From assembly GCA_029881805.1 (NCBI GenBank), contig JAOULW010000010.1, positions 1 through 64,000 on the forward strand: 64,000 nucleotides of DNA, in the 5' to 3' direction. Under the pieces are notes generated by a model, which saw only the letters and a list, made by a program, of their open reading frames with translations, made no database searches and had not been told where the DNA came from. How positions within the stretch are numbered: position 1 is the stretch's first letter; each line of letters starts with the position of its first letter. Of this stretch, positions 31,833 to 46,714 are shown piece by piece. A program made the position numbers and the translations under genes. This stretch comes from Candidatus Bathyarchaeota archaeon (GTDB taxonomy: Archaea; Thermoproteota; Bathyarchaeia; Bathyarchaeales; Bathycorpusculaceae).

Positions 31833-34800
31833 CTAAGCTTTCTCCTTGAGATTCAGTTTCGGGGCGATGCAAAGGCTCATCATTTCTTGAAGCAGTAGTT
31901 TAAATGCATAGGAAACTACAACTGGGGAAATTCTGGCTTTGTCTCCGCAGAGCTTACAGACATATTTTCTCTGTTTCATGTCATAATAAGCGATGTAGCC
32001 GCAGTTTTCACAGACGTGAAGCGTGTACTTGTCTGATTCTTCCAGCAGTCTGTCTCGAAGAAGCATCGTAGCTCCATGTCCGATTAGGCAGTCACGTTCC
32101 ATTTCACCGAATCTTAGACCTCCGCCTCTGGCTCTTCCTTCAGTCGGCTGTCTCGTAAGCATCTGCACTTGTCCTCTAGCCCTAGCATGTATTTTGTCAG
32201 AAACCATGTGATGTAGCTTCTGATAGTATACTACTCCAATAAATATATCTGCAACAAATTTTTCGCCTGTCATGCCGTTGTAAAAGACTTCGCTCCCAGT
32301 GTGACTGAATCCCAGTTGGATAAGGGTTCTTCTCAGCTCCTTAGATTTTTCGTTTGAAAATGGTGTTCCGTCAACCGGATCTCCTCTTCCAGCGGCAACT
32401 TTTCCAGCTAGTGACTCAATAAATTGCCCAATAGTCATTCTTGACGGAATTGCGTGGGGATTGACTATTATGTCTGGAACTACGCCGTCTTCTGTGAAGG
32501 GCATGTCCTCTTGTGGGACAATTAATCCTATTACACCTTTTTGTCCATGGCGAGAGGCAAACTTGTCGCCCAATTCGGGAACGCGCTGGTCTCGGACTCT
32601 AACTTTTACAAGCTTGCTGCCTTCTCCAGACTCTGTTACAAAAATTGCATCAACAATTCCTGTCTCTGAAGGGCGCATGTCAACTGACGTATCTCGCATG
32701 GACGGTCCTTTCACCTCGAATTCCTTATATTCTTCCAAGAATCTCGGTGGGCTAATTCTGCCGACGAGAACGTCCCCGCCGGCGACTCCTGCTTCTAGGC
32801 TTATTATTCCGTCTGGTTCCAGCAGTCTGTAATATTGTTCCCCTCGGTATCCGCGTGTTCCAGGTTCGGGTAAAGTGAACTTGTCTTTTAATCCACCCAA
32901 ATATTGGCGACATTCTCCCTCGTAAATTCTGTAGAAAGTTGAGCGCGCTAGTCCTCTCTCTATTGAGGCTTTGTTGAAAATCAGAGCGTCTTCCATATTA
33001 TAGCCTTCAAAGGAGAGCACGGCCAAAATGCAGTTTTGCCCTGATGGACGGAGTTTATACCCCAGCATCTCCATCAATGCGGTTTCCACTATTGGCACCT
33101 GCGGATAATGTAGAATGTGTGACCTTGAGTCCACACGTTGTTGGAAGTTCGTGGCATAAACTCCTAACGCTTGTTTAGCCATTGCTGCTTGATAGGAGTT
33201 GCGTGGTGACTGGTTGTGCTCTGCATAGGGTATCGTTGATGCGCAGATTCCGAGAATTGTGTAAGTCGCAATTTCCATATGTGTGCGTTTCTGATCCAGC
33301 TCTTCAAGACTTACAGCAACATACGCATTTTCCTCTTCTTCAGCGTCCAGATACTCAATTGTGCCATTCTTTACAAGGTCTTCCCAAGACCAGTCTCCAG
33401 AAACTACTTTTTCTATATGTTCTGGCTGTAGTCTAGGAACGCCGCTTTCAACTATTATTAGGGTTCGCCTGACTCTTCCTTCGTCACAATTAATGTAAAT
33501 TTCCTCTCGCTCACCGTGAATTTTTGAGAAATAAGCTATGTTAACCTCTGTTGAAAACTCTCCTCTTCTACGTCTTTCCCTAAATTCTTTTGCAAGTTCT
33601 CTCGGAGAGTTGCAGTAGCCGATAATGCTTCCGTCTACAAAGACCTTTGCTCCAGAAATTTTCGTGCTTTCGTTTGCTTCAAATATAGGCATCACGCCCA
33701 TGCTGAAGAGCACTTGCTTTATTCTTTCTGGGTTCACACCAACGGCAATGCACGCAGATAATGCCAGGTTCTTGACCAGTCCGCAGTTTGAACCTTCTGG
33801 GGTCTCGTTTGGGCATAATCGTCCCCAATGTGTGGGATGCAGATCTCTTGCTTCGAAGTTCGGTTGACTTCTGCTCAGTGGTGACTGCAGTCTGCGTAGA
33901 TGGCTCAAAGTGGATATGTGATTTGTTCTGTCTAGAAGCTGAGTTATGCCAACTCTTCCCCTTCCCCAGTTTCCAGTTGCAATTGCGTGCTGGAACCTTT
34001 CGCTAATTATTCCCGGCCGGACGGCTGCGGAAACTGTTATTATTGGACCTTTAACGCCTATGCGTTCAAGTTGATATTTTATGTCTCTAACGAGGTTTCT
34101 GAAAGCTACTCTGAACAGGTCAGCGAGCAACGGTCCTGCAAGTCTCAACCGTTTATTTTTGAAATGGTCTTTGTCATCTGTCTGTCGTCTTCCAAGTTTT
34201 AATTCGACTACTCTGCATGCCATTTCGCCCAGAAACAGGGCTTTGTCTCTTCGGCTTTGGTTTGTCCTGCCTATGTGTGGCAGAAAGTTTTTGTCTATTG
34301 CAGTCTCAGCTTTCTGAATGCGGTATTCTTCAACTTGACCGTGTGCAACACGATTTCCAACAAAGAGAATCGCGTCTTTTACCGTTTCTACCCCTAAAGC
34401 TTTCTCAAATGAAGGCTCAAGTTCACCCTGTATTTTCTTATCCAAGGAAATTGCTTCAGCTAATTCCTTATCCGATTCCAAGCCCAAGACCCGCATTATT
34501 ATGGCGAATGGAATATCACTAGGCACGCCTGGAACGGAAACATATATGGCTCCGTCAGGCTTCATTTTCAATTCTATTCTTGCCCTGAAGCCAACGGTTG
34601 TTGAGAATATTTTAGCCTGATATACTGGCGTTGCTCCTTTCTCATCTATGTCTACTAGTATTCGGTTAGGAGCCAAGTCTTCCATTGCCACTATTACACG
34701 TTCTGAGCCATTCACTACAAAGTACCCGCCTGGGTCATCTGGGTCTTCTCCGCATGCTATCAGTTCTTCTCTTGAAAGTTGAGATAGAAAGCATAATTTC

Positions 34801-35207
34801 GATTTCAACATTACTGGAATGTTTCCAATGTAAACAAGTTCTGTGTCCTGTTCTCTGCCGTCTAGAACAGGCGTCATTTCAAGAGCTAGTGGCGCCGCAT
34901 ATGTTAGATTTCGGAGTCTCGCCTCCAAAGGATAAAATTCGTGTTTTGTACCATCTACCTCGGTCGCGTAAGGACCTGTTATTCTTGTCTGGGGATCTAT
35001 TATCCAAACCTGTCCCAGCTTAACCTTGTATGGGTTTTCAGGAACCTCTATCGAGATCTCGCCGACTTCGTCGACCACTTCTTGGAGGCCATGATCTACA
35101 AACTCGTTGAAAGAGTCTAGATGTTGGCGGACCAAGCCTTTTTCTTTGAAGAAAGCCTTTAGCAGAAGATGGGTGTCTTCTTTTGAAATTTCAGCCAAAT
35201 CTAACAA
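31833..35207 (-). CDS. rpoB: DNA-directed RNA polymerase subunit B, unsplit
   Basis: The 1124-residue second-largest subunit is in one chain, not the B'/B'' split of many euryarchaea. Visible elements are QDTELVYIGNIPVMLKS, HPTHWGRLCPNETPEGSNCGLVKNLA, QNCILAVLSFEGYNMEDA (active-site region), GDKFASRHGQKGV and the C-terminal zinc ribbon CENCGY...CKLCGD. The start TTG 35207 follows a G-rich stretch, and an in-frame stop lies just upstream. No rpoH precedes it as in most archaeal operons. The promoter must lie in 35208-35369, directly next to the transposon island. Confidence 0.97.
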   Translation of the reverse strand: MLDLAEISKEDTHLLLKAFFKEKGLVRQHLDSFNEFVDHGLQEVVDEVGEISIEVPENPYKVKLGQVWIIDPQTRITGPYATEVDGTKHEFYPLEARLRNLTYAAPLALEMTPVLDGREQDTELVYIGNIPVMLKSKLCFLSQLSREELIACGEDPDDPGGYFVVNGSERVIVAMEDLAPNRILVDIDEKGATPVYQAKIFSTTVGFRARIELKMKPDGAIYVSVPGVPSDIPFAIIMRVLGLESDKELAEAISLDKKIQGELEPSFEKALGVETVKDAILFVGNRVAHGQVEEYRIQKAETAIDKNFLPHIGRTNQSRRDKALFLGEMACRVVELKLGRRQTDDKDHFKNKRLRLAGPLLADLFRVAFRNLVRDIKYQLERIGVKGPIITVSAAVRPGIISERFQHAIATGNWGRGRVGITQLLDRTNHISTLSHLRRLQSPLSRSQPNFEARDLHPTHWGRLCPNETPEGSNCGLVKNLALSACIAVGVNPERIKQVLFSMGVMPIFEANESTKISGAKVFVDGSIIGYCNSPRELAKEFRERRRRGEFSTEVNIAYFSKIHGEREEIYINCDEGRVRRTLIIVESGVPRLQPEHIEKVVSGDWSWEDLVKNGTIEYLDAEEEENAYVAVSLEELDQKRTHMEIATYTILGICASTIPYAEHNQSPRNSYQAAMAKQALGVYATNFQQRVDSRSHILHYPQVPIVETALMEMLGYKLRPSGQNCILAVLSFEGYNMEDALIFNKASIERGLARSTFYRIYEGECRQYLGGLKDKFTLPEPGTRGYRGEQYYRLLEPDGIISLEAGVAGGDVLVGRISPPRFLEEYKEFEVKGPSMRDTSVDMRPSETGIVDAIFVTESGEGSKLVKVRVRDQRVPELGDKFASRHGQKGVIGLIVPQEDMPFTEDGVVPDIIVNPHAIPSRMTIGQFIESLAGKVAAGRGDPVDGTPFSNEKSKELRRTLIQLGFSHTGSEVFYNGMTGEKFVADIFIGVVYYQKLHHMVSDKIHARARGQVQMLTRQPTEGRARGGGLRFGEMERDCLIGHGATMLLRDRLLEESDKYTLHVCENCGYIAYYDMKQRKYVCKLCGDKARISPVVVSYAFKLLLQEMMSLCIAPKLNLKEKA

Positions 35208-35356: not shown

Positions 35357-35620
35357 CTAATAAACTTTGCTTTTGAAGGTTCTGGTAACTTTTCGTCGGT
35401 TTGAGTCTTCATGGTAACTATCGTCGGATAGTTTCTTTACAAGATGTTTCTGAATGAAATACGCTGGATTTTCTCTTACCATGTTAATGAAAAGTTCGGG
35501 ATTCTGTTCATATGATGGAGTATCAGATTTGTAATATCCACAATTCCAACATATCCACTCGTTCCAATCGCCACTTTTGTATAAGCACATTGGAGAATGG
35601 CAATTAGGACATTCAACCAT
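35357..35620 (-). CDS. Zinc-ribbon protein at the left end of element 1
   Basis: The 87-residue protein has a TFIIB-like zinc ribbon, VECPNCHSPMCLYK...WICWNCGYYK (Cys pairs near residues 4/7 and 24/27). The C-terminal part is helical and then basic. The last codons run through the terminal repeat and stop 21 bp outside the element, so the C-terminus (KSKVY) is partly made of flanking DNA and the native end may differ. The next gene upstream, 8 bp away, is on the same strand. It may bind nucleic acid; the function is unknown. Confidence 0.6.
   Translation of the reverse strand: MVECPNCHSPMCLYKSGDWNEWICWNCGYYKSDTPSYEQNPELFINMVRENPAYFIQKHLVKKLSDDSYHEDSNRRKVTRTFKSKVY
35370..35377. repeat. Target-site duplication, left copy
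   Basis: CTTTTGAA directly abuts the GGTTCTGG tip of element 1. Identical copies stand at the junction of the two elements (38832-38839) and at the right edge of element 2 (44889-44896). The next base is G in all three copies. Eight bases is the usual duplication for IS6-type insertions. Confidence 0.7.
35378..35429 (+). repeat. Element 1 left terminal inverted repeat
   Basis: The tip GGTTCTGGTAACTT (35378-35391) is followed by the motif GGTAACTTTTCGTCGG at 35384-35399 and a second copy GGTAACTATCGTCGGAT at 35413-35429. The right end repeats the same layout in inverse orientation. Two spaced copies at each end look like transposase-binding sites. Confidence 0.7.
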
Positions 35621-35628
35621 TGGTCAAA

Positions 35629-36138
35629 TCACCGTTTTCCTAGAACGCTATCATCTGGGATTTTTGCTTTCACATAAAAGTACAATTCTTCAAATGCTTT
35701 ATTTACTGCATTCAGTTTCTCTTCAAGTTCCTCTAGTTTATCCTTAGAGCTATACCCCGTAAACGAACCCTGTATTCTGTCTCCACAACGAAAGTGCAAA
35801 ATTAGCTCAAATAACTCCTCATTAACTTTCTTTTGTTGGTCAGGTGTTGTTGGTTTAGCACAAATCTTAATCAAATCAATAAGGTCTGACTTGGTTATTG
35901 CTGAAATGTCGCTTGCCATTTTGTGATCAATTGGTCTTTTTTCTTTTTTAAACCTTTGGTATATCTCATCCGCAGGTGGAAAGATGAGTTTGATCTCACC
36001 TCTAATCCAAGCCAAAACGAAATCTTTGATGATTGCGTTTATTTCATCTTCTGAAAATATTGAAGTTGTCATCTTTTTCTCTGATGTACTTGCAGTATCG
36101 GCTTGGTCTGTATTGTCTTTCTTATCGTTACTTTCCAT
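35629..36138 (-). CDS. Charged protein of unknown function in element 1
   Basis: The 169-residue protein has a disordered, charged N-terminus (about 25 residues), a helical middle (DEINAIIKDFVLAWIRGEIK) and a coiled-coil end (SKDKLEELEEKLNAVNKAFE). Its ATG overlaps the end of the ribbon-helix-helix gene, and the zinc-ribbon gene follows after 8 bp, so the three form an operon. I recognise no family; it could be an accessory factor for transposition or a cargo gene. Confidence 0.6.
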   Translation of the reverse strand: MESNDKKDNTDQADTASTSEKKMTTSIFSEDEINAIIKDFVLAWIRGEIKLIFPPADEIYQRFKKEKRPIDHKMASDISAITKSDLIDLIKICAKPTTPDQQKKVNEELFELILHFRCGDRIQGSFTGYSSKDKLEELEEKLNAVNKAFEELYFYVKAKIPDDSVLGKR

Positions 36139-36295
36139 GTTTTTTCTCCTCTGGTTTACATGTTTCTATCCAATGTTGGATAGCTTCTTCCAACGCTTCG
36201 CTTATGTTTCCTTTCTTCATTCCTTTTCTTTCAAATACTGTTTTTCTAAATCTCTCTTCAAGCTCATCTTTCAAGACAATATTCATTTTACCCAT
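36128..36295 (-). CDS. Ribbon-helix-helix (CopG/Arc-like) DNA-binding protein
   Basis: The 55-residue protein has the pattern of a ribbon-helix-helix repressor: the strand MGKMNIVLKDELEERFRK, then KKGNISEALEEAIQHWIETC. Its ATG lies in a region divergent from the transposase start at 36389. TATA-like sequences and repeated AGAGATAGAG/CTATAGAG motifs fill the gap between the two genes. It is well placed to control both operons. The end overlaps the next gene by 11 bases. Confidence 0.65.
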   Translation of the reverse strand: MGKMNIVLKDELEERFRKTVFERKGMKKGNISEALEEAIQHWIETCKPEEKKHGK

Positions 36296-36388
36296 GCTTT
36301 ATCATCGATATATAGTGGAGAGATAGAGCGATATAAAGTTTTCTCTATAAACAGATAGCTTTATATGGTTAGAGAGCTATAGAGATAT

Positions 36389-37522
36389 GTGGCGATAGAA
36401 ATGTTGACGAACAACCGAGAGCAACGTGGAATGCAAATAGCTCAACAAGAAAACCAAATTAAAAGAATCGACGCTAACACTTACCTTGTTAAGTCTCAAT
36501 CAAATCAGGGTGAATATTGCGTTTCTAAAGACACTGATGGATGGAAATGCGAATGCCCCGACCATGTTTATAGGCATTTGAAGTGTAAACACATTTTTGC
36601 AGTCGAGTTTTCCGTTTCATTGAGAGCAGAGGTTGCAGTTAGAAGAATAGAGCCTATTGAGAATCTTACAGAATGCGTTTTTTGCGGTTCATCCAATATC
36701 GTGAAGGATGGAGTTAGACATAACAAGCATGGTGACTTACAAATCTATCTTTGCAAAAGTTGTGGTCATAACTTCACGATAAACTTGGGTTTTGAACGAA
36801 TGAGAGCAACACCACAAATAATCACATCAGCCATGCAACTCTACTTCACTGGAGAATCATTAAGAAATGTTCAAAAATTCCTTAGACTGCAAGGGGTAAA
36901 GGTTAGTCATGTTGCAATTCTGAAATGGATAAAAAAGTACGTGAGACTCATGGAGAATTATTTGGAAAAAATCAAGCCAAATGTAAGTGACACTTGGAGA
37001 GCAGACGAGCTTTACATCAAAATCAAAGGCAACATGAAATACTTGTTTGCTTTGATGGATGATGAAACACGCTTTTGGATAGCTCAAGAAGTAGCAGAAT
37101 CAAAATACAAACATGACGCAAGAAAACTCTTCCAATTAGGTGTGAAGGCTACAGGAAAGAAACCTATGACTCTAATAACTGATGGCTTGCCAGCTTATCA
37201 TGAGGCTTACAAAAAAGAATTTTGGACATTGAAAAACCCCAGAACAGAACACATTAGACATATTACGAATAGAGGAGACAGAAACAACAACAAGATGGAA
37301 AGATTTAACGGTGAAGTAAGAGATAGAGAAAAGACAATGAGAGGATTAAAGAAAAAGGATACACCGATACTCTCTGGCTATCAATTATTCCATAATTACA
37401 TCAGAGTTCACGAAGGATTAGATGGAAAGACTCCAGCAGAAGCATGTGGAATCAAAATAGAAGGAAAAAATAAATGGATTACTTTGATTCAAAATGCACG
37501 AATGACAACCAAAAGGAAGTAG
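36389..37522 (+). CDS. IS6-like DDE transposase with N-terminal SWIM zinc finger
   Basis: The 377-residue protein starts with a SWIM finger (CECPDHVYRHLKCKH, about residues 48-62). It is followed by a Cys4 zinc ribbon (CVFCGSSN...CKSCGH), a helix-turn-helix (ESLRNVQKFLRLQGVKVSHV) and a DDE catalytic core: D in WRADELYIKIKG, D in LITDGLPAYHEAY and E in NNKMERFNGEVRDREK. The core matches IS6/IS240-type transposases like the one in element 2, while the SWIM finger is an addition that probably binds DNA or protein. It starts with GTG at 36389 or ATG at 36401. All three catalytic residues are kept. Confidence 0.85.
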   Translation: MAIEMLTNNREQRGMQIAQQENQIKRIDANTYLVKSQSNQGEYCVSKDTDGWKCECPDHVYRHLKCKHIFAVEFSVSLRAEVAVRRIEPIENLTECVFCGSSNIVKDGVRHNKHGDLQIYLCKSCGHNFTINLGFERMRATPQIITSAMQLYFTGESLRNVQKFLRLQGVKVSHVAILKWIKKYVRLMENYLEKIKPNVSDTWRADELYIKIKGNMKYLFALMDDETRFWIAQEVAESKYKHDARKLFQLGVKATGKKPMTLITDGLPAYHEAYKKEFWTLKNPRTEHIRHITNRGDRNNNKMERFNGEVRDREKTMRGLKKKDTPILSGYQLFHNYIRVHEGLDGKTPAEACGIKIEGKNKWITLIQNARMTTKRK

Positions 37523-37528
37523 TTGTGT

Positions 37529-37813
37529 TTATGTAAAGCAGTATCCTTGTGATTTTAATTCTTTTAGATAGTCTTCATTCGTTAAAGGGCAATTAATCAA
37601 ATCTATGAATTGGTTTTTTTCCAATTTTACCTGTATGGCCATTCGGTTAATCAAATAATCATCAATCTCGTTGCTTCCATGACTTACGAAAGTGAAAATC
37701 GATGTTTTTTTACTATTGACATGAAAAACAAGATGTTTATGGTCGCTTTCTGATGGAGAAAACCCTTTCCGTTTTAGACCATTGACTACTTCCCTTTTTT
37801 TAAGAACAGTCAT
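37529..37813 (-). CDS. HicA/YcfA-like small protein, possible toxin
   Basis: In the 94-residue protein, KKREVVNGLKRKGFSPSESD and KHLVFHVNSKKTSIFTFVSHG, then EIDDYLINRMAIQVKL, follow the plan of HicA-type mRNA interferases (helix, strand with a His-containing loop, strand, helix). The His of DHKHLVF is at the place of the HicA catalytic His, though the usual GSH is absent. It is the last gene of a three-gene operon with two proteins of unknown function and sits tail-to-tail with the transposase. A toxin-antitoxin role is suggested but the antitoxin is not the usual HicB. Confidence 0.5.
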   Translation of the reverse strand: MTVLKKREVVNGLKRKGFSPSESDHKHLVFHVNSKKTSIFTFVSHGSNEIDDYLINRMAIQVKLEKNQFIDLINCPLTNEDYLKELKSQGYCFT

Positions 37814-37832
37814 TAGGGCAACTATCCCCTTG

Positions 37833-38354
37833 TTATTGCTTAATATGACTCAAGATTTTTCCTTTAAGTTCCTTTGCATCATCTGTTAGTTTGCTATCAT
37901 CTTCTTGTCCGTATTCTTTCCAGATAAACAGAATTTCCTCTTGAAAGTTTTTGATACAATCTTCCCTTTTAGCTGAGATAGAAAATATGCCAAACTCCTC
38001 GTTTTGACAAAAATAAGCATTATCATGATAGGCAATACTAGCGGTAATGGGTTCCGCAAATCGCAGTTTTGCACCATCCACGTCAATATGGTCTAAGGCA
38101 ACAAGGTAAACTGCGTTCTCATCAAATATTGGAGTTCGTGTAAGCGTTTTCATAAAATCGGGTATGACGTAATTTCGTGTAGTAGTTGCATTCGCACTAC
38201 TCTCGCCAGCAGTAATATTATTAGCAGACCACGTTGTTTCAGAAATAGTCATACCTTGCCCAGAAGAGCTCCATGCGACTATCTCCATATCTGACATTTT
38301 GAACGGATATTTTGGTATTGACCTAACAACAGTTTGTTGAGCCATTACGCTCAC
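37833..38354 (-). CDS. Unknown protein, middle gene of element 1 operon
   Basis: The 173-residue soluble protein is strand-rich in the first 110 residues (MTISETTWSANNITAG, later IVAWSSSGQG) and helical at the end (KREDCIKNFQEEILFIWKEYG). The last part looks like an immunity- or antitoxin-type tail. It lies 19 bp from the HicA-like gene and 2 bp from the preceding small gene on the same strand. No known domain is recognised. Confidence 0.55.
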   Translation of the reverse strand: MSVMAQQTVVRSIPKYPFKMSDMEIVAWSSSGQGMTISETTWSANNITAGESSANATTTRNYVIPDFMKTLTRTPIFDENAVYLVALDHIDVDGAKLRFAEPITASIAYHDNAYFCQNEEFGIFSISAKREDCIKNFQEEILFIWKEYGQEDDSKLTDDAKELKGKILSHIKQ

Positions 38355-38356
38355 TT

Positions 38357-38581
38357 TTATTTCTTTTCCTCAACACTAACCACGGGAACTGACTTTACGA
38401 AATAGTTATCTCTACCTATTGCTTCCTCTTTCTCATCCAAACGATAAACTTCCGCAAGAATAACTCTCATTTTCATTATTCTGCCATCGCTCAGTTCATA
38501 TTCGCTGAATCCCTCATTAATTACCTTAAAGCTTAATTGTTCCGCATTGACCATTTGACCTTTCGAACCTCTTATCTGCAT
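38357..38581 (-). CDS. Unknown small protein, first gene of element 1 operon
   Basis: The 74-residue protein is strand-rich in the middle (FKVINEGFSEYELSDGRIMK, then VILAEVYRLDE), which could be a small beta-barrel. GGTGA precedes the ATG, and a TATA-like CTTATAATA lies further upstream inside the element. It leads the operon with the two genes that follow. The function is unknown. Confidence 0.55.
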   Translation of the reverse strand: MQIRGSKGQMVNAEQLSFKVINEGFSEYELSDGRIMKMRVILAEVYRLDEKEEAIGRDNYFVKSVPVVSVEEKK

Positions 38582-38780
38582 TACATTTCACCAGAAGTAC
38601 TACTACTAGACTCTAAAGAGATAAAGGTATTTGGGGTATTATAAGCTTTTATGAATCTTAGTTCTATGTCATTATGTTATGACAAATGGTTAATGACAGA
38701 CTCCCGTTACTTTTCTTCTAGCTTGTCTCCTCTTATGTTTCGTGTATTTTCTACCCATTCACATCACCAAAAGAAAAATC

Positions 38781-38831
38781 ATCCGATGAGAGTTAACAGC
38801 CAAACTTCTCCGATGACAAGTTACCAGAACC
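38781..38831 (-). repeat. Element 1 right terminal inverted repeat
   Basis: Read on the minus strand, it starts at 38831 with GGTTCTGGTAACTT. It has the motif GGTAACTTGTCATCGG (38825-38810) and then GTTAACTCTCATCGGAT (38797-38781), mirroring the left end with a few substitutions. Confidence 0.7.
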
Positions 38832-38840
38832 CTTTTGAAG
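38832..38840. repeat. Target-site copy shared by both elements
   Basis: CTTTTGAAG lies between the right tip of element 1 and the left tip of element 2. It serves as right duplication of the first and left duplication of the second. Confidence 0.65.
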
Positions 38841-38864
38841 GATACTGTTAACTTATTAGGGATA
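38841..38864 (+). repeat. Element 2 left terminal inverted repeat
   Basis: GATACTGTTAACTTATTAGG continues to 38864. It is matched by the right end (44865-44888) on the other strand with one T/C difference. Confidence 0.75.
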
Positions 38865-38896
38865 GAGAGTCTGAAGCGTTTGTTATTAAATATGTG

Positions 38897-40411
38897 TTAT
38901 GGAAGTAGGAGAAGAATACTCAAAGGAACGATGGCATATTTTTTACGAATTTCAAGTCGGTTTTTTGATGTAATTATGCCAAAGTCATGAGAACAGCTAG
39001 TTTTCATGAAATCGTATATTCCTTGTGCGTCATTTTTCTGGATGTTATCGGAATATTTGACTTCTATAGGTAGGTATTTACCATCTAGGTCTATTGTGAA
39101 ATCCATTTCTCTTTTCTTACTTTTCCAGTAGTAAACATAGTTTGATGGATCGAAAAGAGAACTTGGGTTCAAATTAAACATGAAACGTGAAAGGTGATTG
39201 CTAACTACACATTCTATCAATTTGCTTTTGTTTTCTTGTGAACTCATGAATTTCTGTGAGAGGTCAAACGCTTTTTTACCATATACCCAACTCCTGCAAG
39301 CATGAAATATGAAGGGGTCCTGAAAGTAGATCTTTTTGTTGCCTACATAGTCAGGGGAAGATTTCTCTACGCTTAGTTGATAAAAGTAGGTGACTACAAA
39401 ACTGTCTTTCAGAATATTAACATAAGATTCAGCTGTCTTCGAGTCTCTAATGTCTGTTCCATTTCTTAGATCATTCCAACTTACATGACTTGAGAGAACT
39501 TCAAATATTCTTCTCAATACTTGCCTTGCGTAATTCTCATCATATCCCCATCTGCAAACATCCCTAATCATTTGACTGACAAAGGTTGCATAGGTATCTT
39601 CTGCTATCTTTCGCTTTGAAATATATTGATGGGTAGCTTGTGCTATTCCACCAGTTAACAAATACTGATCCAGTAACAGTTCTAGTTCCTTAGTAAAGAG
39701 AGCTAGTCTTTTTAGTTCAGAGGGGATTTCGCCATGTGCTAAAGCTAGGAACACGTCTTTTCGGTTCTTAAGAGACAAAAGCCACAAATCCTTGATTTCA
39801 TTAGACAATTTTGGTTCAAGCGTTTCTACATACTCTGAGAATTTTGCCGAAAGCAATATTCTATCAGGAGATGCATACTTCAATTTATCAACTTTGCCTC
39901 TTCTACCTGCAAGAGACTCAGAACCCTTTCTAAGATCAATACTATGAGAACCTGTTAAGATAACTGTGCAATCTCTAAATCTTCCAGCATCAATAAGCAG
40001 TTTAGCTGCCTTTTGCCACTCTTTCAACATAGAGATTTCATCGATGAAAAGGAAAGCCCATTGATCTCCTCTCCTTTGTTGGTTTAAATAAGTGTCAATC
40101 ACAGTCATTAACTGTTTGGGAGTTTCTACAGCATCGCAAGGGAAAAAGAAAATGTTGCTTGGCGACACTCCTTCTTCTTCTAGAAGTTTCTTTATCTGCA
40201 ATTTAAGTAGAGTAGTTTTGCCTACTCGTCTAGGTCCTCTGAGAATGTAGATAACCTCTTCATCTTCAATTGTTTCGCTTAATCTAGGTTTCCATTTGAA
40301 AGCGGATTGCAGCCAATCACATATGTTTACATCATCTGATGGAAACTTGTTTGTTTGCCACCACTTGTTCCAATAAACAAGTTCACTTATGCTCATGTTA
40401 TTAAAGGTCAT
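38897..40411 (-). CDS. AAA ATPase with C-terminal DUF4143/PD-(D/E)XK-like domain
   Basis: The 504-residue ATPase has Walker A LRGPRRVGKTTLLKLQI (about residues 51-67), Walker B WAFLFIDEISMLKEW and the sensor segment VILTGSHSIDL. The C-terminal part, with MDFTIDLDGKYLPIEVKYSD (Asp...Glu-x-Lys), is the restriction-nuclease-like fold seen in DUF4143 proteins. Such ATPases are abundant and mobile in archaea; their role is unclear (defence, element maintenance). It ends just inside the left terminal repeat of element 2 and is the last gene of the transposase operon. Confidence 0.85.
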   Translation of the reverse strand: MTFNNMSISELVYWNKWWQTNKFPSDDVNICDWLQSAFKWKPRLSETIEDEEVIYILRGPRRVGKTTLLKLQIKKLLEEEGVSPSNIFFFPCDAVETPKQLMTVIDTYLNQQRRGDQWAFLFIDEISMLKEWQKAAKLLIDAGRFRDCTVILTGSHSIDLRKGSESLAGRRGKVDKLKYASPDRILLSAKFSEYVETLEPKLSNEIKDLWLLSLKNRKDVFLALAHGEIPSELKRLALFTKELELLLDQYLLTGGIAQATHQYISKRKIAEDTYATFVSQMIRDVCRWGYDENYARQVLRRIFEVLSSHVSWNDLRNGTDIRDSKTAESYVNILKDSFVVTYFYQLSVEKSSPDYVGNKKIYFQDPFIFHACRSWVYGKKAFDLSQKFMSSQENKSKLIECVVSNHLSRFMFNLNPSSLFDPSNYVYYWKSKKREMDFTIDLDGKYLPIEVKYSDNIQKNDAQGIYDFMKTSCSHDFGIITSKNRLEIRKKYAIVPLSILLLLP

Positions 40412-40494
40412 ATTTGGAATCTATTCCGAATCTCTTTATAAAAGCTTTCGGAATCCATTCCATACTCATTTATAAAGACTTATGGAATTAATTC

Positions 40495-40686
40495 CTAAAG
40501 TTGAAGATCCCTAAACCTAGTCTTGCCTTTGCTTGCCTCAACCTTCGCTTTTATTTTTCCTTCCCACTCTTTTTGAGTGAGAACTCCTTTTTCTTCCAAA
40601 AGCTCAACCAAAGCACTAAGCATATCATCAAAAACGTCGACTTCTTCAGCTATCTCACGTAGAAGATCCTTATTCTTTTTTGCCAT
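40495..40686 (-). CDS. Small acidic helical protein in element 2
   Basis: The 63-residue frame starts at ATG 40686 (MAKKNKDLLREIAEEVDVFD). It is helical (DDMLSALVELLEEKGVLTQK) and ends with a basic stretch (ASKGKTRFRDLQL). The start overlaps the ribbon-helix-helix gene upstream. It could be an antitoxin or an accessory subunit of the ATPase downstream. No family is recognised. Confidence 0.5.
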   Translation of the reverse strand: MAKKNKDLLREIAEEVDVFDDMLSALVELLEEKGVLTQKEWEGKIKAKVEASKGKTRFRDLQL

Positions 40687-40843
40687 TATGTCCAACCTTC
40701 TTATTCAGGTATCCCTTTTCAGAAAGATAAGCTATAACAACATTTCTCACGATTTCACTATCACTCTCACCAATCTTGCCTTTTAGATCGCCATTAATAA
40801 TTTTCCATATTCCACTAGGCAGACTAACTAAAATTCTCTTCAT
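40670..40843 (-). CDS. Ribbon-helix-helix protein coupled to the element 2 transposase
   Basis: The 57-residue protein, MKRILVSLPSGIWKIINGDL followed by GESDSEIVRNVVIAYLSEKG, has a clear strand plus two-helix ribbon-helix-helix plan. Its ATG overlaps the TGA of the transposase (ATGA), so the two are translationally coupled. It probably regulates the promoter with the palindrome at 41739-41757. It is too short for many gene finders. Confidence 0.65.
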   Translation of the reverse strand: MKRILVSLPSGIWKIINGDLKGKIGESDSEIVRNVVIAYLSEKGYLNKKVGHNGKKE

Positions 40844-41730
40844 TTAACCATCACCTCTACAGCTAAAGGTTCTTTCTCTGATAACTTTTCTTCTGCCCTA
40901 TTCTTGATAGCTTTCTTGATTAGACTATGCCAGCTACCTTCCATGTCTATTCCCGACGCTTGAGCTGGCGTTTTACCGAGAGATTGATGTTTTCGCACAT
41001 AATTATAATGTGCAACCCAACCTTCCAGCAATATTCTCACAGTTTCTTCTCCTTTCAAACCCCTCATAGGTTTTATCCTATCTTTCAATGTTCCGTGAAG
41101 CCTCTCTACAGAATTGTTGCTATTAACAGCTCTAATGCCAACTTTCCTAATTAGCTCAGGTCTTGTATCTTTCCTTAGTGTTCTAAAAACTTTGTTATAG
41201 CCTTGTACATATGCTGGCAATCCATCTACATAAATCGAGATTGGTTTTCTCTTAGCGATTTTCAAACTCTTCCCAAAAAGGGCGATAGCATCTTCAGCAG
41301 TTCTAGCACCCGACAAGTGACTAGCTACTAGAAACTTTGTTTGTTCATCTATGATTTCCCAGAACCACTTCTGAACACCTTTACATTTAATTGCAGTTTC
41401 ATCTACTTTATAAATCCCCACAAGGATTGGATTAAGAGTCTCAACAAACTCAGATACAAGCTCTGAATATTTTTTCATCCACTTCCAAATGCTTACCTGA
41501 CTAACCTTAACATCAAAAATCTTGTCAATCTGAGCCTGAACTTTACGAACACTAAGCCCTTCAAAATAGAGATCAATTGCAGTAGCAATAATCCTTCCCT
41601 TAGTCCTCATTTTGGGATAAGCCTTTGGCTCAACAAATTTGTGACCACAATTCTTGCAGAGATAAAACTGCTTTTCGTTAACATGACCATTCTTCACAAC
41701 ATTCTCAGAGCCACAGTATTTGCATATCAT
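40840..41730 (-). CDS. IS6-like DDE transposase of element 2
   Basis: The 296-residue protein has an N-terminal zinc ribbon ICKYCGSENVVKNGH...CKNCGHKF, a helix-turn-helix (LSVRKVQAQIDKIFDVKVSQ) and a complete DDE core: D in YKVDETAIKCKG, D in SIYVDGLPAYVQGY and E in NSNNSVERLHGTLKDR. The C-terminal YNYVRKHQSLGKTPAQASGI is typical of IS6/IS240 enzymes. It leads an operon with three further genes to the left end. It has no SWIM finger, unlike the element 1 enzyme. Confidence 0.88.
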   Translation of the reverse strand: MICKYCGSENVVKNGHVNEKQFYLCKNCGHKFVEPKAYPKMRTKGRIIATAIDLYFEGLSVRKVQAQIDKIFDVKVSQVSIWKWMKKYSELVSEFVETLNPILVGIYKVDETAIKCKGVQKWFWEIIDEQTKFLVASHLSGARTAEDAIALFGKSLKIAKRKPISIYVDGLPAYVQGYNKVFRTLRKDTRPELIRKVGIRAVNSNNSVERLHGTLKDRIKPMRGLKGEETVRILLEGWVAHYNYVRKHQSLGKTPAQASGIDMEGSWHSLIKKAIKNRAEEKLSEKEPLAVEVMVK

Positions 41731-41738
41731 CTCTATAT

Positions 41739-41757
41739 CGCCTATGATATATAGGCG
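41739..41757. promoter_or_regulatory. Palindrome before the element 2 transposase
   Basis: A perfect inverted repeat, CGCCTAT-GATAT-ATAGGCG, lies 8 bp before the transposase ATG at 41730, over AT-rich promoter-like sequence. A further half-site CATAGG follows at 41759. It is a likely operator for one of the ribbon-helix-helix proteins of the element. Confidence 0.55.
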
Positions 41758-41813
41758 ACATAGGCATTTATAAAGCTTATGGTTGTTATAGTAACGTATA
41801 AATAAGCATAACC

Positions 41814-41981
41814 ATGATAGAGAGTATAGATGGTATAATGACTGGGGATTTCACAACCATCCGAATCTCAAAGAAAATGAGAGACAAACTTAAAGCCTTA
41901 GGGAAGAAAGGCGAGACTTACGATGAAATTATTGAACGTATGTTCACAGTTCTAGAAGAGAGAGAAAAATGTACACGATAG
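41814..41981 (+). CDS. Ribbon-helix-helix protein (VapB-like/antitoxin style)
   Basis: The 55-residue protein contains FTTIRISKKMRDKLKALGKK and ETYDEIIERMFTVLEE, the standard archaeal ribbon-helix-helix antitoxin or repressor pattern. A TATA-like GTATAAATA lies just upstream. Its end overlaps the restriction-modification gene, so it probably acts as its control protein, comparable in position to C proteins of bacterial systems. Confidence 0.65.
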   Translation: MIESIDGIMTGDFTTIRISKKMRDKLKALGKKGETYDEIIERMFTVLEEREKCTR

Positions 41982-43936
41982 AAAAGGCTAAACAGTTGAA
42001 AGACAATAGTAGAATAAAAAGGCTAAATCATCATGATTTGTTGAAAAAAGTGGTTCTTATGCCTCATACAACAGAGACCGACGCATATGCATGGGTCAAG
42101 CGAGACCTAAAGGAAAAGGGTTGGGATGTTAGAAATCCTGCTAGACATCCTCACGGAGAAGTATACACCCAAAACGAAGTATTTAGTCATGAAGAACTTA
42201 GGAGGCAACTAGAAGGCAGTCAACCTGAGAATGTTGTTAAAGTAGAAGAGGCTCATTTTTGGGTTATCGAAGCGAAGAGAGAACATACTCAATTACAGCA
42301 AGCCTTGAATGAAGCTAAAGAATATGCCAATAGCATTAACAGAAGTCAGACAATCAGAGCCATAGTCGTCTCTGGTGTTGCTGGTAATGAGTATGATGGC
42401 TACATAACAAGAAGTGCGTTCTTCGATGGAAACGAGTTTAGACCAATAACAATCAATGGAAGAGAAGTTTCTGGTCTATTACAAAAGGAAATCGCCAAAA
42501 AGATAGCAAGAGAGAACACGCCAGATTTAGAAGATGTGCCAATAGACAAAACGTTGTTTCTATCTAAAGCAGAGAAGATCAACGAAATTTTGCACTTGGG
42601 TGCTATAAACAAGAATTATCGAGCACGAGTCATGGCATCCTTATTGTTATCATTAGTTGATGAAACTCCGCCAAACAGGAATAACCCACCGTCAGTACTA
42701 ATTGGGGAGATCAACAGTCGAGCAAGTAGAGTTCTTAGATTACAAGGCAAAGGCAATTTTGCAGATTTTATCGAAATCGCCTTGCCCCCCACAGAAGACA
42801 ATCACGCAAAGTTCCGAAACGCACTGGTTCAAACTATGCAGGAATTGGACAGCCTAGAAATAAGGTCTGCAATGAACTCTGGAACCGATGTCCTAGGCGA
42901 GTTCTATGAAGTCTTTCTGAAATATGGAAATGGAGCAAAGGAAATAGGAATAGTGCTCACACCAAGACATATAACAAAATTCGCTGCTGAAGTTCTGAAT
43001 ATAGCTTTGCAAGACATAGTTTACGATCCTACATGTGGAACTGGTGGCTTCCTTGTTGCAGCTTTAGACTATGTTAAGAGAAATGCGAACGAAATCCAGT
43101 TGAATAGGTTTAAGCAGAATAACGTATTTGGAATTGACCAAGAACCCGAAGTAGTGGCATTAGCACTTGTAAACATGATATTCAGAGGAGATGGAAAAAC
43201 CAACATTACTGAAGGAAATTGTTTCCAGAAAAATCTGAAAACCGCAATTATTGATGGGCAACCCTCTGCGAGATACGTAAGTGTGGAAGAATCCAACGAA
43301 AACCAAGAACCTATAACCAAGGTTCTTATGAACCCACCGTTCGCACTTAAGACAAGTGATGAAAAGGAATATAAATTCATTAATCATGCTTTGAAACAAA
43401 TGCAAAGTGGTGGCGTTCTTTTTTCTGTTTTACCATCTTCAATAATGATTAAAGGTGGCAGAGTATTGGCTTGGAGAAGACAACTTTTACAACAAAACAC
43501 CTTATTAGCAGTGATAACATTTCCCCATGATCTTTTTTACCCAATAGGACAACATACAATAGGCGTTTTTGTCAAAAAAGGCATCCCACATCCAAGAAAT
43601 CAAAATGTATTTTGGATACGTGCAATAAACGATGGACTATTAAAAAAGAAAGGCAAGAGGTTGCCAAATCCAAGAGCCTCTAACGATTTGGAAACAATAA
43701 AAAATGACTTGAAATCCTTCCTCGCCAACCCAGACGTACAGATAGTGAATATCCCTGAGTTCCAGAAAGCATGTCCAATAGATTTCTCTGATAGACATTT
43801 AGAACTAGTTCCAGAAGCCTATCTAGATTCAAAAATACCCAATAACCAAGAGATAGAGGAAGGTATAGAGCAACTTATCAGACAAAGTGTTGCTTATATG
43901 ATTAAATCTAAAAGGGAAATAACGGTTAATGGCTAG
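41969..43936 (+). CDS. BcgI-like combined restriction-modification subunit (adenine-N6 methylase)
   Basis: The 655-residue protein has an N-terminal domain (residues about 1-190) with FWVIEAKREHTQLQQALNEA, the Glu-x-Lys part of a PD-(D/E)XK nuclease. It is followed by a gamma-type N6-adenine methylase: motif I DPTCGTGGFLVAALDYV, the FGIDQEPE strand and the catalytic NPPF in VLMNPPFALKT. The order nuclease-methylase in one chain with a separate specificity gene is that of type IIB/BcgI-like systems. The usual Asp of the nuclease motif is not obvious, so cleavage activity is uncertain. It overlaps the specificity gene by 8 bases. Confidence 0.82.
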   Translation: MYTIEKAKQLKDNSRIKRLNHHDLLKKVVLMPHTTETDAYAWVKRDLKEKGWDVRNPARHPHGEVYTQNEVFSHEELRRQLEGSQPENVVKVEEAHFWVIEAKREHTQLQQALNEAKEYANSINRSQTIRAIVVSGVAGNEYDGYITRSAFFDGNEFRPITINGREVSGLLQKEIAKKIARENTPDLEDVPIDKTLFLSKAEKINEILHLGAINKNYRARVMASLLLSLVDETPPNRNNPPSVLIGEINSRASRVLRLQGKGNFADFIEIALPPTEDNHAKFRNALVQTMQELDSLEIRSAMNSGTDVLGEFYEVFLKYGNGAKEIGIVLTPRHITKFAAEVLNIALQDIVYDPTCGTGGFLVAALDYVKRNANEIQLNRFKQNNVFGIDQEPEVVALALVNMIFRGDGKTNITEGNCFQKNLKTAIIDGQPSARYVSVEESNENQEPITKVLMNPPFALKTSDEKEYKFINHALKQMQSGGVLFSVLPSSIMIKGGRVLAWRRQLLQQNTLLAVITFPHDLFYPIGQHTIGVFVKKGIPHPRNQNVFWIRAINDGLLKKKGKRLPNPRASNDLETIKNDLKSFLANPDVQIVNIPEFQKACPIDFSDRHLELVPEAYLDSKIPNNQEIEEGIEQLIRQSVAYMIKSKREITVNG

Positions 43937-44858
43937 AATAACTGACTTGTTCTTTGTAAAAAGAGGAAAAGGTGAATACCGAGAAAACCTTGAAAAAGGT
44001 GACACGCCTCTTGTTTCTGCCACCAACACCAACAATGGAATCGTAGATCATGTAGACATAGAACCTACATTTCGAGCACCAGCAATCACGGTTGAAAGGG
44101 TAACTGGGCAAGCATATGTGCAATTGTTTGACTTTGCTACAGTTCCAGATGATATATCGGTTCTTATCACAAAGGAAGAGATGAGTCTGAAAAAGTTGTG
44201 CTATATCGCCTCTCAGATAAACCTCTTAAAATGGAGGTTCAGTTATGCAAGGAAATTAACCCCCACCAGATTGAAATCTCTTGAAATTGAATTAGCCAAA
44301 TTTTATGATGAAGAGCTAAATCTTTCAGAAAGATTTCCAGAAAGCTTTACTAGAGAAAGTATAGAACATAATCGGAATTACCGTTTTTTCAAAGTTGTGG
44401 ATTTGTTTGACATTACTAGAGGAGATTTTCATGCGTTAGATCGACTAGATGATGGTGATGTTCCTACAGTATCAAGAATTTCTGAAGACAATGGGGTCAC
44501 AGGGTATTATGAAAAACCCAGTGAAGCAGAAATACACGCAAAGGGTCTATTAACGGTATCTACAGTCACTGGAGATGCCTTTGTTCAGTTAGAAGATTTC
44601 ATAGCCACAGACAATGTGCTTATATGTAGACCTAAAAGAGAATTTCGAATCACCACATTGTTCTTCATTCAACTAATGATTAACTTTGAAAAGTGGCGAT
44701 TTTCATATGGGAGACAACCTTACAGGAGAGTGTTTTCTAAAACAAGGATTTTTCTCCCCACTAATGGTAGTGGTGAGATAGATGAAGATTATATTCAGAG
44801 ACTTGTGACAAACTCTTATGGATGGAGCATGATAGAAAATACACTGGCGTCAGAATAG
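43929..44858 (+). CDS. Specificity subunit of the BcgI-like system
   Basis: The 309-residue protein is built of two similar halves, each with the start of a type I-like target recognition domain: DLFFVKRGKGEY...PLVSATNTNNGIVDH (residues 6-40) and DLFDITRGDFHALD...PTVSRISEDNGVTGYY (about 158-195). Each half has later WRFSYARKL and WRFSYGRQP motifs. Two half-sites are expected in the recognised DNA. The start lies inside the end of the methylase gene and the stop 30 bp before the right end of element 2. Confidence 0.82.
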   Translation: MARITDLFFVKRGKGEYRENLEKGDTPLVSATNTNNGIVDHVDIEPTFRAPAITVERVTGQAYVQLFDFATVPDDISVLITKEEMSLKKLCYIASQINLLKWRFSYARKLTPTRLKSLEIELAKFYDEELNLSERFPESFTRESIEHNRNYRFFKVVDLFDITRGDFHALDRLDDGDVPTVSRISEDNGVTGYYEKPSEAEIHAKGLLTVSTVTGDAFVQLEDFIATDNVLICRPKREFRITTLFFIQLMINFEKWRFSYGRQPYRRVFSKTRIFLPTNGSGEIDEDYIQRLVTNSYGWSMIENTLASE

Positions 44859-44864
44859 TAGCTT

Positions 44865-44888
44865 TATCCCTAGTAAGTTAACAGTATC
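44865..44888 (-). repeat. Element 2 right terminal inverted repeat
   Basis: The minus strand reads GATACTGTTAACTTACTAGG and continues GATA, matching the left end with one difference. Confidence 0.75.
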
Positions 44889-44897
44889 CTTTTGAAG
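44889..44897. repeat. Target-site duplication, right copy
   Basis: CTTTTGAAG stands immediately outside the right end of element 2, identical to 38832-38840 and to 35370-35378. Confidence 0.68.
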
Positions 44898-45070: not shown

Positions 45071-46714
45071 GTGATAGAATTGAGAAGCAAGCAGCATGCA
45101 AGAGTGAGTCTAATAGCTATGGGCATGATTCTAGCGGTCGCCTCATTATTCGGTAGTCTGAATCTCGGAGCTAGAGCAGAAAACTTTCCCGAGTATCAAA
45201 GGTACGTGCATGACTATTTGAATTCGGGGGTTTTGGGAAACTGGACTTACATGGAGAAACCGATGTTTCCAATACTTTTTAATGATTCTCAAATCCTCAT
45301 AGGCGAAAACTGGAGTATCGTATGCCCTCTTGTGGCTAATCACAGTTACCATGTGTACTGTTATGGCGAGTGGGTAAACAAAAGTTCGGAACCCAAAACG
45401 GACTATGACATCTACGTCTACAATCCTTCAGGGGAGCTGGAAGGCTATCACACTGAGTCTGCAGGACTTCCTGAACATTTGGGCACCTCTGTTGAAAAAG
45501 CCTTCTTCGCCCCAAAATACTCTGGCAACTACACCTTCGTAATGGTGAACGACCAGAGAGAAAGTAAGGGAGCCCAACAAGCAACGTTCATGATAATTGA
45601 GAACGTAGAATGCGATGTTTGGCGTGAGCATTATATCGAAGGAAAAGACGAGTATAGTCAGCCTATTTTTAACACGAGTTGGGCTTTTGAGTTCATGACA
45701 GAAAGCCAATACATAGAAGTGTGGGTTAAGGTTCCAGAAAGTTTGGACATGTATGAAGCTAGGCTTTACCTGATGACTGATCCCAAACAAGCGAACAAGA
45801 CAGTGTTGAATGGTGTCCCGCTGGCTTGGGAGACTGGGCTTTTCGGCGAAAGAAATGGCACTGTTGGCGGATACAATTTGGAGAGCAAGGAATACCGCGG
45901 AGTAGCCTATGCGAGTTGCGAACTCCATGGTCAAGACATGTTCTTAAATTACACTTTGCCATATTCTGGAAAGAATTTGTATCATCTGGTTTTTGTGGGC
46001 GAGATCGGCGCTGGATCCATAGAGTTTCTTGTGAAGACGGAGTTTGGCAACGTTTGTTTGAAGCCTTCGAGTGTTCCATCAAGGGTTTATCCATATAATG
46101 AGACTGCAATCGCTTATGCTTCAAGCTCGACGAACTTGGTGAGTGCTACTATAAACTACACTGTTGATGGATGGAGAAACATGACTGTTTTGGAAATGGA
46201 AATTGTTGACAATAGTACTTGTATAGCGGTTATTCCTGGACAAGTCGCAGGCACCCTTGTTAGCTATAGAGTTGAAGCCCTTGATGCTCTCGTGAACGTT
46301 CTTGTAGTAAACGGAAGCTATTCAGTAAAGCATCATTCGGCGTTGAACATATCTCTTGTTCAAGAAAAAGTGTATCTAGGCGAAAGCATGACTGTTAGAG
46401 GCCATTTAATCCCTGAAACCAAAGACGTCCCAATCACAGTTCATTTTGAATCAGCAAATGAAACAATAGAGCTCATGTGTCGTACATCAGAAAATGGCAC
46501 GTTCATGATCGCTTTTCAACCGAACGCGACAGGCATGTGGGGCGTACAAGCAAGATTCGCTGGAGATAGTTATGCCTACGAAAATCTAAGCCCTCAACTG
46601 ATGGCAAAAGTCGAGGAGGCACCACTATATGTTAAATATGCCCCATACATTGGGGGAGTAGGCATAATAGCCGTAATAGGCATAGTAATCTACCTTAAGA
46701 AATCAAAAGGATAG
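45071..46714 (+). CDS. Exported membrane-anchored surface protein
   Basis: The 547-residue protein has an N-terminal signal-like helix (VSLIAMGMILAVASLFGSL) and a C-terminal membrane helix (YIGGVGIIAVIGIVIYLKK) with a short basic tail. The outside part is strand-rich with many N-glycosylation sequons (NWT, NYT, NGT, NMT, NST). Two modules near the end look like Ig/macroglobulin-type domains (SSTNLVSATINYTVDGWRNM; ISLVQEKVYLGESMTVRGHL). It is probably a surface glycoprotein of unknown role. It starts with GTG. Before the transposon island arrived, it lay next to and divergent from rpoB. Confidence 0.7.
   Translation: MIELRSKQHARVSLIAMGMILAVASLFGSLNLGARAENFPEYQRYVHDYLNSGVLGNWTYMEKPMFPILFNDSQILIGENWSIVCPLVANHSYHVYCYGEWVNKSSEPKTDYDIYVYNPSGELEGYHTESAGLPEHLGTSVEKAFFAPKYSGNYTFVMVNDQRESKGAQQATFMIIENVECDVWREHYIEGKDEYSQPIFNTSWAFEFMTESQYIEVWVKVPESLDMYEARLYLMTDPKQANKTVLNGVPLAWETGLFGERNGTVGGYNLESKEYRGVAYASCELHGQDMFLNYTLPYSGKNLYHLVFVGEIGAGSIEFLVKTEFGNVCLKPSSVPSRVYPYNETAIAYASSSTNLVSATINYTVDGWRNMTVLEMEIVDNSTCIAVIPGQVAGTLVSYRVEALDALVNVLVVNGSYSVKHHSALNISLVQEKVYLGESMTVRGHLIPETKDVPITVHFESANETIELMCRTSENGTFMIAFQPNATGMWGVQARFAGDSYAYENLSPQLMAKVEEAPLYVKYAPYIGGVGIIAVIGIVIYLKKSKG

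Follow-up and report, generated by a model that had tools for sequence, protein, structure and literature searches.

How did two large mobile elements come to occupy one short site between rpoB and its divergent neighbour gene? The window, which is the whole stretch of 64,000 nucleotides that was analysed, contains copies of CTTTTGAAG exactly at positions 35370-35378, 38832-38840, and 44889-44897. These three copies bracket two segments. The first-pass annotation had read them as two separate insertions into the same short site and had suggested a preference for that site. The positions given there were exact, and each segment has its own inverted ends and its own transposase as had been described. 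The question is what brought the second element to the place of the first.

Structure of the tandem array

As a word alone, CTTTTGAAG is not significant. It occurs four times in the window where 1.8 occurrences are expected, and 11 of 100 shuffles reach four. The weight comes from the inverted ends that abut each copy. Inverted arms were identified at 35378-35399 and 38810-38831 (22 nt, 91%) and at 38838-38867 and 44862-44891 (30 nt, 93%). The search for ends with exact duplications delimited element E1 at 35378-38831 (3454 bp), with the 8-bp duplication CTTTTGAA, and element E2 at 38841-44888 (6048 bp), with the 9-bp duplication CTTTTGAAG. The left inverted end of E1 is GGTTCTGGTAACTTTTCGTCGG (35378-35399, plus strand) and its right inverted end is at 38810-38831 (minus strand). 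The left inverted end of E2 is GATACTGTTAACTTATTAGGGATAGAG (38841-38867, plus strand) and its right inverted end is at 44862-44888 (minus strand). The duplication of E1 is 8 bp and not 9 bp because the E1 end begins GGTTCTGG; the E2 end begins GATACTG and its duplication is the full 9 bp. E1 uses 8 bp of the first copy (35370-35377). The middle copy is common to both elements, with 8 bp belonging to E1 and 9 bp to E2, and the last copy is the 9-bp duplication of E2. Each segment encodes one transposase of the DDE_Tnp_IS240 type (IS240/IS6-type DDE). E1 and E2 are two tandem unit transposons with IS6-type transposases.

E1 adjoins E2 and has a duplication in common with it, which could also be the case in a single composite transposon moved as a whole or in an artefact of assembly. 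Either origin is extremely improbable, since E1 and E2 differ in their ends and duplication lengths and have their own transposases, and since independent genomes exhibit the same kind of array. A middle duplication is also unexpected in a unit moved with outer ends from two elements. A second locus where E1 and E2 are joined in the same order with new outer duplications was searched for in the own genome and none was found.

The array is located between rpoB (RNA polymerase subunit B; 31833-35207, minus strand), the gene whose promoter is the target, and the divergent gene (45071-46714, plus strand). The N-terminus encoded by the rpoB ORF is matched at 82-88% identity in relatives, beside the same divergent gene. 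The removal of E1 and E2 leaves a compact intergenic region that can be aligned across the site with four relatives, which belong to the same family and not to the same genus, and in these four the two genes are adjacent without an insert. The distinct ends, the distinct duplication lengths, the two transposases, the family-level empty sites, and the same arrangement at other loci all bear out the account of two separate insertions at one short site. The TATA box of the rpoB promoter, TTTATTAG (35357-35364, minus strand), is conserved in the relatives without insert, and the alignment with relatives places the 5-nt BRE-like spacer CAAAG (35365-35369, minus strand) between this box and the duplication. 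On the rpoB strand beside the first duplication, the conserved order is TTCAAAAG-CAAAG-TTTATTAG, which corresponds to duplication, BRE-like pentamer, and TATA box. On the usual layout of archaeal promoters, we take CAAAG to be the BRE and TTTATTAG to be the TATA box.

Transposases, cargo, and family placement

The E1 transposase (36389-37522, plus strand) consists of a SWIM-like segment, a zinc ribbon with four cysteines, and an IS6-type DDE domain according to profile searches, alignment, and the predicted structure. The SWIM-like segment scores below the Pfam cut-off. D206, D265, and E304 of the DDE domain are invariant. The predicted structure (mean pLDDT 87) has the fold of a DDE enzyme, akin to retroviral integrases and other DDE transposases, and its N-terminal additions could be candidate targeting parts. 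We considered whether the zinc ribbon might have a particular, TFIIB-like origin and dropped the idea, as the match is below the Pfam cut-off and the IS1/IS1595 zinc-binding model fits better. The ORF list and profile searches also gave passenger ORFs on the minus strand of E1, of which those at 35629-36138 and 37833-38354 are without family match and that at 37529-37813 is weakly HicA-like (below the Pfam cut-off). A small zinc-ribbon ORF (35357-35620, minus strand) is located at the left end of E1 and extends beyond it, across the duplication and into the TATA box of rpoB.

The E2 transposase (40840-41730, minus strand) has a zinc ribbon and an IS6-type DDE domain in profile searches. The cargo of E2, identified by profile and PADLOC searches, comprises an AAA_14/DUF4143 ATPase (38897-40411, minus strand; PADLOC candidate PDC-S01), an N6 DNA methyltransferase of HsdM or type IIG-like kind (41969-43936, plus strand), and an HsdS-like DNA specificity subunit (43929-44858, plus strand).

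Both window transposases exceed the cut-off of the IS6 model NF033587 (128.5 and 128.8 bits, cut-off 125), and 47 of 47 relatives match the IS6 DDE domain at E<=1e-5. Their matches to Transposase_mut are weak and the best model is IS6. Short IS6 elements measure 0.79-0.88 kb and have a single transposase gene. E1 and E2, at 3454 and 6048 bp and with passenger ORFs, are not of this format, so they are termed IS6-like unit transposons and not simple IS6 elements. The clade of E1 and E2 is similar to the IS6 family (IS26, IS257, and ISC774) in its DDE transposase, in the GGTTCTG with which E1 ends start, and in the 8-bp duplications of E1. It differs from that family in the added N-terminal zinc ribbon, to which the E1 type also adds the SWIM-like segment, in its size (mostly 2-6.6 kb with cargo), and in the 9-bp duplications of the E2 type. 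Only one IS6 member with a passenger gene, ISDsp3, is given in a 2021 review of the family (PMC7986276).

Further copies in the own genome were located by a transposase search. A third family element on contig C32 (L011:4219-9030) is 4812 bp long with perfect 24-nt ends and the duplication GGATTTAG. It is of the E1 type with different cargo, and its transposase is 83% identical to that of E1. A decayed E2-like element on C2 (L012:5286-10299) has both ends recognisable, a fragmented transposase, and a flanking duplication that no longer matches. A search of the own genome with the end pattern gave no excess over the reversed-pattern control. Both element types have further copies of their ends with matching duplications, the C32 element included, as the earlier reading of the two segments as transposons had anticipated.

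Target sites of the family

Insertions were surveyed in relatives of the window's genome and in a named collection (Bathyarchaeota, Thaumarchaeota, Methanoperedens, Methanoregula, and others). An insertion was counted as resolved when both ends and a perfect duplication were found, and the outer flanks were not used in detection. In this way 62 insertions were resolved; five further loci, four of the E2 type and one of the E1 type (L068), stayed unresolved in relaxed searches and were left out. The 62 elements are 0.6-6.6 kb long (median 3.5 kb). They carry 144 passenger ORFs, where 10 match N6 methyltransferases, 8 match specificity subunits, and others match GmrSD, PIN, and further families. 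Cargo of methyltransferase and specificity subunit recurs among them, mostly without an evident restriction subunit, and may serve in defence or in maintenance. A MITE-like element of 578 bp (L077:8118-8695) has perfect ends, the duplication TTGAACCC, and only the C-terminus of a transposase, and it adjoins a TATA box.

The duplication is 8 bp in 54 of 57 resolved E1-type insertions and 9 bp in 5 of 5 E2-type insertions, which form a small sample. The duplicated sequence has almost no consensus. What the insertions have in common is located outside it. Beyond the duplication, on one side, 20 insertions have an outward TTWAWW that starts at offset 5, 17 have one at offset 6, 4 have one at offset 7, and none has one at offsets 3-4. 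The number of insertions with an outward TTWAWW within offsets 4-7 is 29 of 62, whereas control windows of equal size further out give 1.6 on average and at most 6. A TATA-like box, defined as at least five of six matches to TTTAWA, is present 3-7 nt beyond the duplication in 46 of 62 insertions (74%; control mean 13%, maximum 24%), and about a quarter of the insertions are without a clear TATA at this distance. A motif fitted without shifts yields 6.04 bits per insertion compared with at most 2.71 in shifted controls, and its columns exhibit a weak BRE followed by TTTAWAW. The TATA-side 16-mers are distinct in 60 of the 62 insertions, so the insertions are not copies of a few events. An outward gene start is found within 50 nt on the TATA side in 24 of the 46 cases, mostly at 22-48 nt, as expected for leaderless archaeal genes. 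The E1-type elements are oriented 24:24 relative to the TATA box.

The insertions keep a fixed spacing to the TATA box, on one side only, with boxes of diverse sequence, and irrespective of which letters are duplicated. The site preference for the word CTTTTGAAG that the first-pass annotation had suggested is rejected, since the duplications of the resolved insertions differ from one another; the family favours sites about 5 nt upstream of a TATA box. The account of two insertions stands, and the duplicated letters as the cause of the shared site do not.

The same peak was looked for in other elements. No peak at 5-6 nt was found in 14 resolved IS4/IS5-type elements of the same order or in 9 resolved ISC774 elements, two small control sets in which some ends are uncertain, and the search for IS256 controls yielded only 2 elements. 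TATA-anchored insertion is a further difference between the clade and the IS6 family, as far as the nine ISC774 insertions represent the latter. TATA-like boxes are located 9-12 nt from three ISC774 insertions (L315, L316, and L330), whose small number and high AT content allow no judgement; ISC774 may have the TATA preference in a looser form.

Selection could produce a bias towards promoters if elements inserted anywhere and survived only just upstream of promoters. Insertions within genes are costly and rpoB is essential, which agrees with this explanation. However, selection would leave a broad zone upstream, whereas the observed offsets peak at 5-6 nt and none is at 3-4 nt, and the IS4/IS5-type elements of the same order are without such a peak. 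We consider selection in place of targeting very unlikely.

A choice made by DNA sequence or shape only is a more serious alternative. Bendable AT-rich DNA would be preferred, the TATA box would be the most bendable part, and stacking would follow since the site is left unchanged by an insertion. In its favour, a TATA box is flexible DNA rich in A and T, the insertions differ in their box, and a simple preference for A/T might account for part of the motif. Three properties of the sites speak against this alternative. The spacing is sharp, with 0 insertions at offset 4 and 20 at offset 5. The preference is found on one side only, in the direction of gene starts at 22-48 nt. When the same TATA-like test is moved outwards by 10-35 nt within these flanks, it finds 8-13 of 62, compared with 46 of 62 at the site. 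Sequence or shape only is possible but is the less probable explanation, and recognition of a position relative to the promoter is preferred here.

Some promoters recur among the sites. Four loci in different genomes of Thaumarchaeota (L224, L229, L236, and L244) adjoin promoters that have a common GGTACTNGTACCGTACCATACG-like stretch following the TATA box, which gives the impression of repeated hits on one promoter family. A second recurrent hot spot is a near-identical target (TTTTTAA-ATATA-CATAAATA) that is found on different contigs at L213, L222, L223, and L262.

Stacking and order of insertion

The duplication is abutted by another family end in 18 of the 62 insertions, where 0.43 are expected. 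Own ends for each element and the same duplication flanking both, as in the window, are also found at L206/L177, where three elements are located at one site with the same duplication TGCCGCGA, at L064 (TTCTTGAG), and at L179 (AGCGAAGA). The orthologous site TTCTTGAG-CAAAG-TTTATATT is occupied by two elements in G049 and by a single, different element in its sister G159. The window array is one case of a recurrent stacking pattern.

In 16 of the 18 stacks, the TATA box and the neighbour are on opposite sides of the focal element. The focal elements of the other two are themselves distal, being E2 in the window and the second element of L206. A complete distal partner is found in only a minority of stacks, a comparison that is biased by contig ends and by the selection of intact elements; mostly incomplete distal partners are expected if the distal elements are older. 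Since insertion is addressed to the promoter, whichever letters are duplicated, each further hit would extend a tandem array, and the newest member would stand beside the TATA box. From this pattern in relatives, the promoter-proximal element is probably the newest, and at rpoB E2 probably came first and E1 second.

The stacks could also form if a newcomer recognised the end of a resident element, as IS26, IS21, or IS911 can, and inserted beside it, so that the promoter would be a chance first landing. The 18 abutting insertions agree with this, and IS26 is known to prefer targets that have a resident IS26 (PMC7986276). However, the TATA spacing is found in 46 of 62 insertions overall, although 44 of the 62 have no family end beside them. 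Targeted integration of the IS26 type needs like ends and leaves no new duplication, but the neighbouring ends in the stacks always differ (11-18 of 24 positions identical). The resolved intact element is beside the TATA box in 16 of 18 stacks and not equally on both sides. Attraction by resident ends is unlikely to explain the arrays, and repeated insertion at the promoter is retained.

Comparison with known promoter-associated elements

The nearest precedents for the clade are Ty3, which is guided by TFIIIB, and TnGBS/ISLre2/ISKra4. The latter insert at a fixed distance upstream of promoters, their symmetric-ended elements insert both ways, and contact with the initiation complex was proposed for TnGBS (PMC3942029). 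The clade of E1 and E2 works like these elements but is not a member of their group, which has Mutator-like (p-MULT) transposases. Their targets are sigma-A promoters of bacteria, with insertion 15-17 nt upstream of the -35 box, whereas the position here is about 5 nt upstream of the archaeal TATA. Ty3 docks on TBP and Brf1, which gives it a fixed place relative to the complex of TBP and B-factor while the gene is spared (PMC8632968). It uses a eukaryotic retrotransposon integrase and inserts 2-3 bp upstream of Pol III start sites, and the protein contact has been solved there, whereas we only infer it here. The archaeal Mutator-like ISH6 has an AT-rich 8-bp target and was suggested to favour promoter regions (PMC3942029). 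The duplicated letters of ISH6 carry a consensus (AANATNTT), whereas those of the present clade carry almost none and its TATA box is outside the duplication.

A search of the open-access literature, in which subscription-only reports could be missed, found no description of archaeal IS6-type elements whose insertion is TATA-anchored. The clade is IS6-like and cargo-bearing, with promoter-anchored target choice.

Proposed mechanism and significance

We hold with considerable confidence that E1 and E2 belong to a promoter-anchored IS6-like clade and that both inserted at the same place upstream of the rpoB promoter, the second reusing the duplication of the first. Elements of this clade would insert in either orientation with a duplication that ends about 5 nt upstream of the TATA box, on the BRE side. 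E2 would have landed upstream of the rpoB promoter, and E1 would have landed later at the same place, reusing the duplication of E2. The transposase would take its bearings from the promoter, with the TBP/TFB complex over BRE and TATA as the most likely guide, and would cut just upstream of the BRE/TATA covered by this complex. Contact with TBP/TFB as the guide is suggested by analogy with Ty3 and TnGBS. With somewhat more inclination for than against, we propose that an archaeal transposase clade across several lineages reads the TBP/TFB preinitiation complex, that its cargo, often for DNA modification or defence, would be fixed 5 nt upstream of TATA, and that promoter-side stacks would be a chronological record.

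The analysis ties three identical 9-mers, a seeming coincidence, to a landing rule for an archaeal transposon family. The landing distance from the start signals of promoters is near-fixed, which accounts for the accumulation of elements at one site. Should the transposase be guided by the TBP/TFB complex, the clade would be the archaeal equivalent of Ty3 and TnGBS, with a transposase of another family. Such guidance would also explain how large cargo elements are located beside essential genes such as rpoB while the genes stay unbroken, and the relative age of stacked elements would be readable. It would further offer a promoter-addressed insertion tool and a natural promoter map for archaea that are hard to grow.
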